Below, piece after piece: positions 19,156 through 43,179 of a stretch of 43,651 nucleotides of DNA. The notes beneath the pieces are model-generated. The model was not told where the DNA came from, did not search any database, and saw nothing but the letters and a program-made list of their open reading frames with translations. The DNA comes from an uncultured Alphaproteobacteria bacterium. Lineage in GTDB: Bacteria; Pseudomonadota; Alphaproteobacteria; HIMB59; GCA-002718135. A program made the position numbers and the translations under genes. Location of the stretch: assembly GCA_902635455.1 (NCBI GenBank), contig CACPNW010000011.1, positions 1 to 43,651 on the forward strand, written 5' to 3'. How positions within the stretch are numbered: the first letter of the stretch is position 1; each line of letters opens with the position of its first letter.

Positions 19156-19979
19156 ATCTTTATTCTTAATAAATCCCTGCCTATAATTGGATTTTTTCCA
19201 AAATCTGCCTTAACTGTTTTAATTAACTTTTTTTCGTCAAATTGAGTTGGAACCAAATGAGTTAATACAAGTTTTTTACATCTTGTAATTTTTGCTATCT
19301 TACCAACCAATGAAGAAGGCGTGTGATAAGCCTTAACATTGTGTAAAGTTTTAGCAGTTCGCATTTTATTAGTTTTCATAATTTCCCCATCTATAAAAAC
19401 TTCATGTAACAGAACGTCTGCTAATTGACCAAATTTCATCACATTTTCGCATGGTCTTGTATCTCCACTAATAGTCAATTTTTTATTTTTATGAATGAAA
19501 TTAAATCCATATGCATATTTAACTGGCTTATGATCCACTTCAAAATATGTTATAACTATATCTTTAATATTTATTTTTCCAGTATTTTTAAACTCTTTAA
19601 CAATAATTTTAAAAGCTGCAGTTGAAGACCTTGATTCATATTTTATACGTTGTGATCTTTCTTGTTTCCAGGAATTCATAATTTTTTTAATAAAATTTTT
19701 TGTTCCTTTTGGTCCATATATTTTCCAAGGTTTAGTTCTATAAGAATGCCAAGATGAAATTATCAATTGATAAAAGTCTATAATATGATCTGAATGAAGA
19801 TGGGTTAAGAATAAAGCATCAATCTTTGATGAAGATAGTTTTAATTGATCTAATCTTTGCGTTATACCTGAACCACAATCTACAAGAATTTTTGTTTTCT
19901 TTGTGCTAATTAAATTTGCAGGACCAAATCTTTTATAATCTACTTTTGGACAACCTGTTCCTAGAAGTGTCAACTCCAT
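19152..19979 (-). CDS. Metallo-beta-lactamase-fold hydrolase, RNase Z-like
   Basis: This is a two-metal hydrolase of the RNase Z/ElaC branch of the MBL superfamily. In the 275-residue protein the metal motif is THLHSDH, with His60, His62, Asp64 and His65. A later His comes in FEVDHKPVKYAYGF, an Asp in TISGDTRPCENV and a His in LTHLVP. The N-terminal LLGTGCP is typical of RNase Z-like proteins. The long flexible exosite arm of true tRNase Z is not obvious. Its role may be tRNA 3' processing or small-molecule hydrolysis (AtsA-like proteins look the same). Since the tRNAs seen here encode CCA, an essential tRNase Z is not required. Its ATG overlaps the rpoD stop by one base, so it is co-expressed with the sigma-factor operon. 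Confidence 0.85.
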   Translation of the reverse strand: MELTLLGTGCPKVDYKRFGPANLISTKKTKILVDCGSGITQRLDQLKLSSSKIDALFLTHLHSDHIIDFYQLIISSWHSYRTKPWKIYGPKGTKNFIKKIMNSWKQERSQRIKYESRSSTAAFKIIVKEFKNTGKINIKDIVITYFEVDHKPVKYAYGFNFIHKNKKLTISGDTRPCENVMKFGQLADVLLHEVFIDGEIMKTNKMRTAKTLHNVKAYHTPSSLVGKIAKITRCKKLVLTHLVPTQFDEKKLIKTVKADFGKNPIIGRDLLRIKI

Positions 19980-22179
19980 TATTCATCAAGAAAAGTTTTA
20001 AGTTTCCTTGCTCTTGTAGGGTGTTTTAATTTTCTTAATGCTTTAGCCTCAATTTGCCTAATTCGTTCACGCGTTACACTAAATTGTTGCCCTACTTCTT
20101 CTAATGTATGGTCACTATTCATACCAATACCAAAACGCATACGTAAAACTCTTTCTTCTCTAGGAGTTAATGAGGAAAGTATTCGTGTGGTTGTATCTCT
20201 TAAAGAACTTTTAACAGCTGCTTCTATTGGTATAAGCGCATTCTTATCTTCAATAAAATCTCCAAGTGAGCTATCATCTTCATCCCCTACAGGAGTTTCT
20301 AAACTTATAGGCTCTTTAGCAATCTTTAAAACTTTTTTAACCTTATCCAAAGGCATTCGCAACCTATCCGCTAATTCATTTGGAGTTGGCTCTCTGCCAA
20401 TTTCAGTCATAATTTGTCTTGTAGTTCTTACAATTTTATTTATTGTTTCAATCATGTGTACAGGTATACGAATAGTTCGCGCTTGATCAGCTATTGATCT
20501 AGTAATTGCTTGCCTTATCCACCAGGTAGCATAAGTGGAAAATTTATAACCTCTTCTATATTCAAATTTATCAACAGCCTTCATTAAGCCTATGTTTCCT
20601 TCTTGGATTAAATCTAAAAATTGCAGACCTCTATTTGTATATTTCTTTGCTATTGAAATCACTAGTCTTAGATTTGATTCAATCATTTCCTTTTTTGCTC
20701 TATTTGCTGATCTTTCACCTTGTTGTACTGTACCAACTATGCGTCTAAATTCAGAAAGAGGCAATTCACAAGCAAGTTGAATTTCTTTTATTTCATCAAT
20801 TAATTTATTAATCTCAATGTGGTTTTTATTAATAAATTTTTCCCAGTTTTTGTCTTTTAAAGACAGTAAAGATTGTATCCAGTTTTTTTCAAAATTAAAA
20901 TTAATGTATTGTTCTATAAAATTTTCTCTAGGAACTCCTGAATTCATTGCTAAACGCAACATTCTTCCTTCACGAACTAATAATTTTTTATTTAACTCAT
21001 ATAGGGACTCCATCAATGCTTCAATAGTAGTTGAATTAAAGTGAACCTCTTTCATTGCAACTACCATTTCTTTTTGAATTTTTTTGTATTTTTTCTCTAT
21101 TGCTAAATATTTTTTTTCATCTTTTTTATTAGCATTAATAAGTTCTTGACTGTTTTTTTGGAGTTTTTTAAATAATTTAGTTATTTCATCAAAATCATTT
21201 AAAACTCTTGGTTTTAGTTTTTCCTCCATTGCAGCAAGAGAAACATTTAAACCCTCTTCTTCATCTTCTTCTTCAGAATTTTTTTGCTCTTGACTTTCTT
21301 CATTAGATTCATTTTTAGATTCTTTTTTTGGTTTTTTTTCTTCTTTTTTTTCTTCTTTAGCTCCTTCAATTAACTTCAAAGTATCATCTAATTTATTATC
21401 AGAAATATCAGACATGTCATAAGTTGCTTCAAGATCCACAATATCTCTAAGGAGCATTGTTCCATCTTTAATAGAGTCTTTCCAATTAATAATAGAATGT
21501 ATTGTCATTGGGCTTTCACAAATAGCGCCTATCATTTTTTCTCTTCCTGCTTCTATTCGTTTAGCTATTGCAATTTCTCCTTCTCTACTTAATAATTCAA
21601 CAGCACCCATATCTCTGAGGTAAAGTCTTACTGGATCATCGGTCTTGCCTGCCTGTTTTTTTTCTTCATCTTCACCATCTTCTTCAGATTTTTTTTGCTC
21701 TTCTTTTGCAGCTTTTATTAATTCTGCCGCCTCTTCTTCTTTAAGAATTGTAATTTTATTTAATTTAAGTTTTTCAACTACTTTATTAACGTTTTCTTCA
21801 TTTCTTAATTTTTTAGGTATACCTTTTTCAATAATTTTAAAGGTATAAATACCATCTACTTTATATTTTGTAATTAACTTAGATATAATTTCTTGAATAT
21901 GATCATCAAAATTAATTTCTTTTTTTAATTTCTTTTTTACAACTTTAGTAGGTTTAATTTTTTGTTTTTTTAATTTATTTAGTTCTGTTGATGATTTTTT
22001 AGCAACCTTTTTTTTAGATATATTTTTTTTGATAAAGATTTTTTTTTCTTGATATTAGTTAAATTTTTTTTCTTTTTTGGGGTTTTTTTCTTAATTATTT
22101 TTTTTTTAATTTTTGATTTACTTTTAATACTTTTCTTTTTGAGAATTTTTTTCTTTTGATTTTTCTTTTTTTTAGGCAT
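19979..22179 (-). CDS. rpoD: RNA polymerase primary sigma factor RpoD (N-terminus split by a frame change)
   Basis: This is the housekeeping sigma-70 factor. Regions 1.2 to 4.2 are intact: [22 protein letters not shown] (1.2), the acidic and helical insert of alphaproteobacterial Rpo[29 protein letters not shown] (2.1-2.2), the [14 protein letters not shown] motif (2.3-2.4), RIPVHMIET (3.0) and the helix-turn-helix [20 protein letters not shown] (4.2). This frame stays open back to a TAA at 22055-22057, but no ATG, GTG or TTG occurs upstream of 21610. Starting at 21610 would cut off region 1.1 and part of 1.2. A Lys-rich 66-codon frame starting at ATG 22179, which overlaps the dnaG stop by 8 bases, supplies the missing start in another frame. 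A -1 shift (or one extra A) between 22054 and 21979 joins them into about 733 residues. Confidence 0.9.
21979..22179 (-). other. N-terminal reading frame of rpoD and frame-change window
   Basis: This 66-codon frame is about half lysine (32 of 66), starts MPKKKKNQ and ends at a TAA at 21979-21981. Its ATG lies within the dnaG stop region, the kind of coupling seen between yqeY and dnaG. The main rpoD frame opens at 22054, so both frames are open for 76 bases. That window holds three A-runs on the coding strand: A9 at 22039-22047, A8 at 22023-22030 and A8 at 22008-22015. The last is read AAA AAA AGG in the first frame, and a one-base backward slip gives AAG GTT GCT, which is the main frame. The window therefore has the features of a slippage site or a homopolymer indel. 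Confidence 0.75.
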
Positions 22180-37284: not shown

Positions 37285-38990
37285 TGAAAAAAATAAATAG
37301 AAATGCTTATGCTGATATGTATGGTCCGACAACTGGTGATAAAATTAGATTAGCAGACACAGAACTTTTTATAGAAGTTGAAAAAGATCTTACAACTTAC
37401 GGTGAAGAAGTTAAATTTGGAGGAGGTAAGGTCATAAGAGACGGGATGGGTCAGTCTCAAGTTTCACGAAAAGATGGAGCAGTTGATACAGTTATAACAA
37501 ATGCTCTAGTAGTTGATGTAAACGGAATTTATAAAGCAGATATTGGCCTAAAAGATGGTTTAATAAATGAGATAGGAAAAGCGGGTAATCCTGATACACA
37601 ACCAAATGTAAATATTATAATTGGCCCTGGTACTGAAATAATTGCCGGAGAAGGAAAAATAATTACAGCTGGTGGTTTTGACAGTCATATACATTTCATT
37701 TGTCCTCAGCAAATTGATGATTCTTTACATTCTGGTATCACAACTATGCTAGGAGGTGGAACAGGCCCTGCTCATGGAACTCTAGCAACAACTGTCACTC
37801 CTGGTCCATGGCATATAGAAAAAATGATTCAATCAGCAGATGCCTTTTCAATGAATTTAGCTTTTGCTGGCAAAGGTAATAGTTCTCTCCCATTAGCACT
37901 TGAAGAACAGGTAATTGCTGGGGCGAGCTCACTTAAATTACATGAAGATTGGGGCACTACTCCTGCTGCAATAGATAATTGTTTAAATGTTGCAGACAAA
38001 TATGACATTCAAGTGATGATACATACTGATACATTAAACGAAAGTGGCTTTGTTGAGAGTACTATTAAAGCAATTAATGGAAGAACTATTCATGCATTTC
38101 ATACTGAAGGAGCTGGTGGAGGTCATGCACCAGATATTATAAAAGTTTGCGGTGAAAAATATGTCATTCCTTCATCAACTAATCCAACTAGACCTTATAC
38201 AATTAACACTGTTGAAGAACATTTAGACATGCTTATGGTGTGCCATCACCTTGATAAATCTATACCTGAAGATGTTGCTTTTGCTGAAAGCCGTATTAGA
38301 AAAGAAACTATTGCTGCAGAAGATATTCTTCATGACATTGGTGCGTTTTCAATTATTGCTTCAGATAGTCAAGCTATGGGTCGCGTTGGAGAAGTTATAA
38401 TTAGAACATGGCAGACAGCTCATAAAATGAAAGTGCAAAGAGGACAGCTAAAAGAAGAAAAAGGGAATAACGATAATTTGCGAGTAAAAAGATATATAGC
38501 TAAATATACTATTAATCCTGCTATAGCCCATGGGATATCGGAAAATATTGGAACAATAGAAAAAAATAAGCGTGCTGATATTGTAATTTGGGATCCAGCA
38601 TTTTTTGGTGTCAAACCAGAGATTATTTTAATGGGAGGAAGTATTGCTTGCGCTCAAATGGGCGATCCTAATGCGTCAATACCAACACCTCAGCCAGTCT
38701 ATTCGAGGCCCATGTTTGCTTCATTTGGAAAATCTCTTGAAAAGTCTTCTGTTACATTTGTAAGCCAAATATCTCTTGATAAAGACATGCACAAAAATTC
38801 AGGGATTAATAAATCATTATTGCCAGTAAAGAATATTAGAAATATTTCAAAAAATGATATGATATTAAATAATTGTTGTCCAAAAATAGAGGTTAATCCT
38901 GAAACATATGAAGTATTTGCTGATGGAGAGCTTATTACATGCGAGCCTGCTAAAATTTTACCTTTAGCACAACGATACTTTATGTATTAA
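37284..38990 (+). CDS. ureC: Urease alpha subunit UreC
   Basis: UreC is the catalytic subunit that hydrolyses urea to ammonia and carbamate at a dinickel centre. The 568-residue length is standard. Nickel-site features are all visible. The first His pair is in [11 protein letters not shown], and the carbamylated Lys218 is in [11 protein letters not shown]. Further His ligands are in HTDTLNESG and [15 protein letters not shown], and Asp is in ASDSQAMGR. The catalytic flap carries [21 protein letters not shown]. The N-terminus ([23 protein letters not shown]) and the C-terminal PLAQRYFMY are typical. It overlaps ureB by one base and ureE follows after one base. Confidence 0.99.
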
Positions 38991-40866: not shown

Positions 40867-41370
40867 ATGAAAAAAAATATTTTTCACCAATTAAAAGAAA
40901 AAGATATTAAAGATGTTTTATATATATATAATTATCATATTGAACACTCAATAGGTAATTTTGAAGAAAAAAAAATGTCTTTTGTTTCATTTAGTAAGTT
41001 TATTAATTCAATTAATAAAAAAAAACTTCCATTTATTGTTAGTAAAACAAACAATATAATATCTGGTTTTGCTTTTTTGAGCCAATATAGAAATAAAAGT
41101 GGCTACAGATTTACTTTTGAAAATTCAATTTATATTCACCCTGAGTTTGTAAACAAAGGCATAGGTAATCAACTTCTAAAAGAGTTAATAAAAAATTGCA
41201 AAAAAAATAAAACAATAAAAAATATAATTGCCGTAATTGGTGATTCTAAAAATTATAACTCTATAAAAATTCATAAAAACAATGGGTTTGTAAAAATTGG
41301 TATATTAAAAAAAGTAGGTTTTAAAAAAAATAAATGGATTGACTCAGTTTATATGCAAAAAAAACTATGA
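40867..41370 (+). CDS. GNAT acetyltransferase, phosphinothricin-acetyltransferase-like
   Basis: This is an acetyl-CoA-dependent N-acetyltransferase of the GNAT superfamily. The 167-residue protein has the Bar/Pat-like order. It has an N-terminal DIKDVLYIYNYHIEHSIGNFEE segment, then IYIHPEFVNKGIGNQLLKELI with the acetyl-CoA loop VNKGIGN at about residues 97-103. SIKIHKNNGFVKIGILKKVGFK and the WIDSVYMQK ending follow. Relatives acetylate methionine sulfone/sulfoximine or amino-group toxins. It overlaps the next gene by 4 bases (ATGA), forming a small operon with a flavin-reductase-like gene and the M23 peptidase. Substrate is not predictable. Confidence 0.85.
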   Translation: MKKNIFHQLKEKDIKDVLYIYNYHIEHSIGNFEEKKMSFVSFSKFINSINKKKLPFIVSKTNNIISGFAFLSQYRNKSGYRFTFENSIYIHPEFVNKGIGNQLLKELIKNCKKNKTIKNIIAVIGDSKNYNSIKIHKNNGFVKIGILKKVGFKKNKWIDSVYMQKKL

Positions 41371-41834
41371 AAAAATTTAATAATAAGCTTTTTAGGCAAA
41401 CTTTGAGTAAGTTTGCTACTGGGGTTACCGTAGTTGCTATAAATAGTAATGAAAAAATTATTGGCAAAACTGTAAATTCATTTTCTGCGCTATCTTTAAA
41501 ACCTCCATTAGTTTTATTCTGTTTGGATAAAAAAACATCTGATTTAAAAGAATTTATAAAAAATAACTATTTAAGTATTAATATACTAAGCAACAAACAA
41601 AGTGAGATTTCAAAAAATTTTGCAAAAAAAGATTCAAAATGGAAAAATATACCATTTAAATTAAGTAAACTAAACAGCCCCATAATTGATAAGAGCCTTG
41701 CAAATTTAGAATGTCAAATAGTCAAATCTTTAAAAGAAGGTGACCATATAATTGTAATATGTAAAGTTGTTAATCTTTATTTAAATGATAAATTAAAGCC
41801 ACTTTTATATTTTAACTCAAATTATATTAAATAG
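41367..41834 (+). CDS. Flavin-reductase-like domain protein (NTAB/HpaC family)
   Basis: This flavin-binding split-barrel protein is of the DIM6/NTAB family, which reduces FMN or FAD with NAD(P)H or uses bound flavin. The 155-residue protein shows the family N-terminus FRQTLSKFATGVTVVAINSNE, GKTVNSFSALSLKPPLVLFCLDK, the SINILS strand, NLECQIVKSLKEGDHIIVICKV and the C-terminal PLLYFNSNY. It may supply reduced flavin to a two-component monooxygenase not present here. The start overlaps the GNAT stop, and the stop is followed directly by the GTG of the M23 N-terminal frame. Confidence 0.9.
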   Translation: MKKFNNKLFRQTLSKFATGVTVVAINSNEKIIGKTVNSFSALSLKPPLVLFCLDKKTSDLKEFIKNNYLSINILSNKQSEISKNFAKKDSKWKNIPFKLSKLNSPIIDKSLANLECQIVKSLKEGDHIIVICKVVNLYLNDKLKPLLYFNSNYIK

Positions 41835-41984
41835 GTGATAGTTAGATTTAAATATTTTTTTTATTTCACTTTATTTCTTCTAGGTTATTATTTTTTTTTT
41901 ACAGGCTACCAAAATATTAATCTTCAAATAGAAAATCCTGTATTTATTGATGAAGAAGTTAGTAAAAAAACTAATATTAAATAA
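41835..41984 (+). other. N-terminal frame of the M23 peptidase gene (signal/anchor part)
   Basis: A 49-codon frame starts at a GTG placed directly after the stop of the flavin-reductase gene and ends at TAA 41982-41984. It reads MIVRFKYFFYFTLFLLGYYF and then FFTGYQN: a basic start and one hydrophobic segment, that is a signal anchor. The remainder (INLQIENPVFIDEEVSKKTNIK) is polar. Removing one A from the A7 run at 41964-41970 continues this frame as EEVS-KKLILNKEQT, which is exactly the start of the peptidase frame. The M23 frame by itself has no secretion signal. I read the two as one gene split by a one-base change. Confidence 0.7.
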
Positions 41985-43179
41985 AGAACAAACCAATACT
42001 TTACTAGAAACAAACACTCAAAATAACATTATAGTTAAGGATGAGAACGAGAACGAGAACGAGAACGAGAACGAGAACGAGAACGAGAACGAGAACTTAC
42101 TTACAACAGTTGTAAAAGTAAAACAAAATCAAACTTTTTCAAATATTTTAAAAAAATATATTCAATCGAGTGATTATTCTTTTAAAATTATTAACGAGAT
42201 AAATAAAAAATTTAATTTAAAGAAATTAAGAGCTAACCAGCTAATTTATTTTTATCAAAATAAAAAGGACAATAAATTAGAAAAAATAATAATTCCAATA
42301 GATTCTGATATTAATTTAATTATTAAATTAGGAGAAATTGTAGATGTTGAAAAAAATATACTTAATAGAACCATAGAAAAAAAATCTCAAGAATATACAA
42401 TTAATGATTCAATTTATAATGATGGAATTAAAAATAATATACCAGTTAATATTTTAATTAAATTAATTAAACTTTACAGCTTTGATTTAGACTTTCAGAG
42501 AGATATCAGAAAGGAAACTAAAATATCTATTTCTTATGACTCAATAATAATTGATAATAGGGATGAAATATTTTTTGGTGATATTAATTATGCTTTGATA
42601 GAAATTGAGGGGAATAAACTTGAATATTTTAAATTTATAACAAATGACGGATATACAGATTATTTTAATAGAAAGGGTGAAAATGTAAAAAAATCAATTC
42701 TTAAAACTCCTCTAGATGGTGCTAAATTATCATCAGGTTTTGGAATGAGAAAACATCCAATTTCAGGTTACAATAAAATGCATAGAGGTGTAGATTTTGC
42801 TGCTCCTTCTGGTACTCCTATTTATGCGGGTGGTAATGGTGTAATTGAATTTGCTGGTAACAATGGTGGATATGGTAAGTATATTAGAATTAGACATAAT
42901 AATGAATATAAAACAGCATATGCTCATTTATCAGGATATAAAAAAGGATTAGGTGTTGGTTCTAGAGTTAATCAAGGTGACGTAATTGGATACGTAGGTA
43001 GCACAGGCATTTCAACAGGACCTCATCTGCATTATGAAATTATATTTCAAAATAAACAAATTAATCCATTAAAATTAAAGCTACCATCAGGTAAAATATT
43101 GAAAGGTCAGGAATTAGAAAGATTTGTATCCGAGATGAAAACTATTTATGCAAATCATTTAAATTTGCTTTTTGAATAA
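41950..43179 (+). CDS. M23-family metallopeptidase (LytM/EnvC-like)
   Basis: This is a zinc endopeptidase that cuts peptidoglycan cross-links, or an activator of amidases. Residue numbers count from TTG 41947. The sequence has an acidic-polar spacer with (Glu-Asn)9, a LysM/OapA-like domain (KVKQNQTFSNILKKYIQ), and a linker. The C-terminal M23 domain has GFGMRKHP, zinc ligands His279 and Asp283 (HRGVDFAAP), catalytic His327 (AYAHLSG) and HLHYE with His360 and His362. All catalytic residues are present, so it is probably active. The frame opens at TTG 41947 or ATG 41950, both without a signal. The likely true N-terminus is the frame at 41835 (see that entry), giving about 447 residues. It is the last gene of the GNAT-flavin operon. 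Confidence 0.9.
   Translation: MKKLVKKLILNKEQTNTLLETNTQNNIIVKDENENENENENENENENENLLTTVVKVKQNQTFSNILKKYIQSSDYSFKIINEINKKFNLKKLRANQLIYFYQNKKDNKLEKIIIPIDSDINLIIKLGEIVDVEKNILNRTIEKKSQEYTINDSIYNDGIKNNIPVNILIKLIKLYSFDLDFQRDIRKETKISISYDSIIIDNRDEIFFGDINYALIEIEGNKLEYFKFITNDGYTDYFNRKGENVKKSILKTPLDGAKLSSGFGMRKHPISGYNKMHRGVDFAAPSGTPIYAGGNGVIEFAGNNGGYGKYIRIRHNNEYKTAYAHLSGYKKGLGVGSRVNQGDVIGYVGSTGISTGPHLHYEIIFQNKQINPLKLKLPSGKILKGQELERFVSEMKTIYANHLNLLFE
42043..42096 (+). repeat. (GAGAAC)9 hexanucleotide repeat encoding Glu-Asn repeats
   Basis: Nine perfect tandem copies of GAGAAC (54 bases) lie in the N-terminal spacer of the M23 peptidase and encode (Glu-Asn)9. The unit is a multiple of three, so copy-number changes alter spacer length but not frame. 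The repeat uses GAG and AAC codons, unlike the AT-rich preference of the genome, which suggests recent expansion. It may be polymorphic between cells. Confidence 0.97.

Follow-up and report, generated by a model that had tools for sequence, protein, structure and literature searches.

Organization of the M23 peptidase locus

The DNA analysed here (the window, 43,651 nucleotides) is contig C11 of a genome assembly of 1.14 Mb in 43 contigs that is 68% complete. The source organism belongs to a group that we take to be HIMB59/AEGEAN-169 and, to judge from its relatives, the assembly would be a single amplified genome. Sampled over its first 431 kb, the genome has a GC content of 28.5%; values of 27.0–32.5% are given for HIMB59/AEGEAN-169 in PMC10308909. 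The locus consists of genes for a GNAT acetyltransferase and a flavin reductase, a short frame with a membrane-anchor segment, an M23 peptidase frame and, on the opposite strand, a DUF4167 gene. The same order surrounds the M23 gene in the relative G001. The features around the peptidase are as follows.

41367–41834, forward strand: flavin reductase gene, directly upstream of the anchor frame (and directly upstream in all 34 close orthologs described below)
41835–41984, forward strand: 5' piece in frame 0, 49 codons, with a GTG start, a membrane-anchor segment and a TAA stop (41982–41984)
41932–41981, forward strand: overlap, open in both frames, that holds the one-nucleotide register break
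41947–43179, forward strand: M23 frame with linker, middle domain and peptidase domain; first start TTG 41947, then ATG 41950
41964–41970, forward strand: A7 run, longer than any other in the overlap and the probable, unproven site of the indel
42043–42096, forward strand: linker repeat (GAGAAC)9, frame-neutral because its length is a multiple of three

The M23 frame (frame 1) is open from 41932 and terminates at 43179. It differs from the anchor frame in register by one nucleotide, and joining the two requires one base fewer or two more. The boundaries of both frames, their start codons and the position of the A7 run are as described in the original prediction, which also held this run to be the only place where the frames could be joined. 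The latter claim goes too far: a register change of one base at any point of 41932–41981 would join them, and the overlap contains other runs as well (AAAA at 41932–41935, TTT at 41943–41945 and AAA at 41979–41981); A7 is the longest. The T10 run at 41891–41900 was rejected as the break site because the M23 frame is closed there by a stop at 41929–41931. Alignment to a profile of the orthologs tracks frame 0 up to residue 46 of 49, the final part being weakly conserved; it points towards the 3' half of the overlap without pinpointing the indel, which probably lies in the A7.

The (GAGAAC)9 repeat is perfect and codes for Glu-Asn repeats, which were not seen in the first 95 residues of the orthologs. 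Elsewhere in the window, the Rfam family RF02514 (5' ureB sRNA) matches 37433–37719 on the reverse strand, antisense to the urease alpha gene, with 102.4 bits (gathering threshold 40); this match may simply mirror the conserved urease coding sequence. A plasmid search returned a single weak match, inside the peptidase region.

The open frame scores 112.6 bits (1e-32) against the M23 Pfam model, well above the cut-off of 28.7, and carries the HxxxD and HxH motifs at residues 284 and 365, which together make it a member of the M23 family. Among solved structures, the closest chains are 3slu, 6muk and 4rny, followed by those of ShyA (6ue4/6u2a). Compared to the NCBIfam models of MepM (NF008652) and of ShyA and ShyC (NF053825 and NF053824), the protein remains below every equivalog cut-off, with 159.6 bits against 341 for MepM, 142.3 against 700 for ShyA and 200.1 against 700 for ShyC. 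The match nevertheless spans the greater part of all three models, and likeness to MepM and ShyC extends past the catalytic domain (positions 47–433 of 439 in the MepM model and 56–413 of 429 in the ShyC model). The M23 motifs of MepM, ShyA and ShyC are present in the window protein and an N-terminal anchor is present in its orthologs, but in the assembly the anchor is out of frame and the scores are far under the curated cut-offs. The protein is thus a predicted MepM/ShyA-like M23 peptidoglycan endopeptidase that is related to these enzymes without being an equivalog of any. The genome contains one additional M23 match, on contig C34.

Anchor and peptidase share a single frame in orthologs

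Excluding the window's own two loci, 57 matching loci were found, corresponding to 49 distinct proteins, 41 of which have a complete 5' end. The profile was built from the 34 close orthologs that remained once seven of the 41 had been excluded, namely six Flavobacteriaceae loci and L030, which belongs to another family. In every one of the 34, the gene starts −20 to +4 nucleotides from the flavin-reductase stop, a hydrophobic 19-mer (Kyte-Doolittle value of at least 1.6) is found within the first 60 residues of the M23 frame, and the anchor and the peptidase, which are out of frame with each other in the window assembly, lie in a single frame. A GTG that abuts the flavin-reductase stop serves as the start in 19 of the 34 orthologs, and GTG 41835 is placed likewise. 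The equivalent of the inner start at 41947 is used by none of the 34, and no ortholog that starts near it and lacks an upstream hydrophobic segment, the case named beforehand as speaking against an indel, was found among them. L030, the sole ortholog of the other family with its 5' end in hand, also has the anchor segment in the M23 frame, and 18 further entries of its family in the search listing have open frames of 439–500 residues.

The short 5' piece was compared with the orthologs against a background of every stop-to-stop piece in the window with 15 or more residues (1569 in total). A profile of the ortholog N-termini matches 41835–41981 with an E-value of 5.5e-8, the next best piece having 0.33. 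The full-length profile matches 41932–43176 (2.6e-189) and then 41835–41981 (7.5e-5), with the next piece at 0.66; it places the anchor piece at model positions 2–45 and the M23 piece from position 32 onwards. Hydrophobicity alone was rejected as proof of an anchor. On the GES scale, the window's segment (1.85) is inside the ortholog range of 1.15–2.51, but equally hydrophobic 19-mers occur in 32 of 413 six-frame pieces of 30–80 residues, and its Kyte-Doolittle value of 1.24 falls below the ortholog minimum of 1.64 because the segment is rich in Phe and Tyr. The anchor read from this frame in the original prediction is upheld by the profile match, whereas its hydrophobic character proves little.

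Judged by these alignments, the anchor frame and the M23 frame are parts of one gene, whose M23 3' part contains no further stop. The proposal that an indel separated the anchor from the M23 domain thus finds support in all 34 close orthologs.

Similar breaks in this genome and its relatives

Three further genes, one of them in two genomes, are split in a comparable manner.

19979–22179 of the window, reverse strand: rpoD, whose Lys-rich 5' piece and sigma-70 body lie in different frames, with A6–A10 runs throughout the stretch
L083, about 1254–1364: rpoD of G015, split in the Lys-rich 5' part at a place that differs from that in the window
Contig C12 of the window's genome (G000), 13869–13041 (L103, 13041–13869), reverse strand: EamA-like transporter gene, split at an A10 run
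Contig C2 of the relative G029, about 270400–270430 (L126), forward strand: lgt, divided in two close to the 3' end, near an A6

In the window, the Lys-rich piece of rpoD runs from ATG 22179, and the sigma-70 body, whose frame is open from 22054, lacks an ATG upstream of 21610. From the genus, 24 rpoD loci were fetched, two of which lie at contig edges; among the other 22, the gene is in one frame in 20 and split in two, and the splits in the window's genome and in G015 are at different distances from the start. The pieces of the EamA-like gene match the EamA model at positions 2–48 and 67–134. An order-wide search for lgt gave a match in 48 of 61 genomes, in two pieces in G029 alone; the other 47 genomes have one stop-free match each, which in G005 covers only positions 1–214 of 240. 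The first piece of the original lgt hit in G029 was discarded as upstream sequence of an overlong query frame. For rpoD and lgt, the break was located only approximately. In the relative G051, a genome of the other family, the Lys-rich N-terminus of rpoD is absent in frame and the frame begins within an upstream open reading frame (L088, about 799–1239), possibly the result of a deletion or a false join.

At least three breaks are present in 822 kb of the window's genome, those in rpoD and the EamA-like gene among 533 ortholog hits and that in the M23 gene. The reverse comparison, of the open reading frames of this genome with 1,196 kb of G029, gave 513 hits and at least one true break, that in lgt. 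Both counts are lower bounds: one flagging rule missed the M23 break, which has a short 5' piece, while another rule set caught it, and the counts leave out the flagged rows C15:8316, C11:14943, C11:25587, C11:1089, C11:1573, C9:26, C14:19803, C4:1875, C11:2773 and C1:16796. Several other candidates in the window's genome were rejected. The signal at C2:107934–108038 is the signal recognition particle RNA (L162, 7958–8051) before a coding start, C2:16180 is an overextension upstream of a conserved start, the stops at C14:18144 and C19:7250 lie solely before conserved starts, the differences at C5:16983 and C15:17151 lie solely upstream of them, and C7:19421 is a low-complexity match to a Phe-rich frame that is probably no gene.

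Origin of the break

The one-base break in the M23 gene is probably a technical indel introduced by single-cell amplification, sequencing or assembly. It is private to one assembly, its surroundings are free of decay, and similar breaks are scattered in essential genes; the first two of these properties would be equally expected of a recent real mutation. A single-cell workflow benchmark for marine genomes of this kind puts the rate at 3.0 indels per 100 kb (PMC11247762, with the same figures in PMC8443664), which corresponds to about 15 indels over the 491,580 ortholog-backed coding bases of the genome, so the three breaks found could be covered by error alone. Error also fits best because the breaks are in usually essential genes and each is private to one genome; those in rpoD and lgt, if neither errors nor rescued, would be difficult to square with a living cell. 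Counting against a technical origin, the P. marinus benchmark tended to show the fewest indels (PMC5519541), and thousands of A-runs in the relatives carry no detected break. We infer that the break is technical rather than a real mutation, two cases that are not separable on sequence.

In the relatives, the gene starts at or beside the flavin-reductase stop and runs in one frame through the anchor, a variable A-rich linker and the peptidase domain. In the assembly, the anchor is cut off from the enzyme by the loss of register by one nucleotide within the linker, and the living cell probably produces an ordinary anchored M23 enzyme.

A recent private mutation in the lineage of one cell, leading to loss of function or to a mislocalised enzyme, is unlikely, and less likely than a technical indel. 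The break is indeed private to the window's genome in an otherwise undecayed gene, indels are known to cluster in the A-runs of AT-rich genomes (PMC3017870), and the M23 gene on C34 would be a second one in the same cell. However, rpoD, normally an essential gene, would also have to be broken in the same genome.

Still less probable is a real break from which full-length protein is partly made by unregulated slippage of RNA polymerase or the ribosome, as proposed for Buchnera and Blochmannia, whose A/T-tract frameshifts are thought to be partly corrected in this way, with corrected transcripts reported in insect symbionts (PMC3017870, PMC5009743). The likeness consists of single A-rich breaks in otherwise intact genes, information-processing genes included, in an AT-rich reduced genome, and it is strengthened by the breaks in rpoD of two genomes, in lgt and in the EamA-like gene. 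In Buchnera transcripts, deletions in runs, too, increase with run length (PMC5574713). On the other hand, the run in question is only A7, the frame would be restored by one base fewer, and no break is common to relatives. Transcriptional slippage in A/T runs for the most part inserts bases. Among Buchnera transcripts, homopolymers account for 151 of 157 insertions as against 16 of 57 deletions, and a restored frame was not detected in that organism (PMC5574713). It is correspondingly improbable that a HIMB59-like lineage truly carries A-rich frameshifts in essential genes (rpoD of two genomes, at different places, lgt and the M23 gene) and copes with them by slippage of the polymerase or the ribosome.

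Two independent genes, one for a small membrane protein and one for a cytoplasmic M23 protein that starts at 41947 or 41950, are very improbable. A start codon is present in each frame, but the 41835 piece matches the ortholog N-terminus, which led us to reject an independent small membrane protein, and the inner start is unused in the orthologs.

The indel that splits one gene thus stands from the original prediction, and the alternative offered there, regulated slippage that switches the enzyme between export and the cytoplasm, does not. The break is common to none of the 34 orthologs, whose linkers carry A6–A10 runs of varying place and length while remaining in frame, so that a break with a slippery site conserved in relatives was not found. 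The ortholog-backed frames of the genome contain 758 A7, 406 A8, 111 A9 and 16 longer runs, and A7 is ordinary in this genome on account of its 758 occurrences. A canonical −1 slip of the ribosome on the A7 was rejected because, read from the sequence, it goes in the wrong direction. SAR11 was absent among the matches listed in a literature search on slippage and SAR11. Programmed slippage is poorly supported because the break is unshared, the runs are unfixed, the A7 is short and the sign of the slippage is the less common one; a regulated switch, supported solely by the overlap of two open frames at the A7, is scarcely credible. If true, such a switch would be a new control over the site of action of a cell-wall enzyme, and the orthologs speak against it.

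Implications

AT-rich and probably single-cell genomes show one-base A-rich breaks even in rpoD and lgt, which calls for caution. Where such a genome seems to lack a signal anchor or to contain a pseudogene, the gene should first be compared with relatives. Were reads to confirm the breaks, the set formed by rpoD, lgt and the M23 gene would render slippage rescue testable in a free-living bacterium and, if rescue proved true, the phenomenon proposed for Buchnera and Blochmannia would extend to a free-living streamlined marine bacterium.
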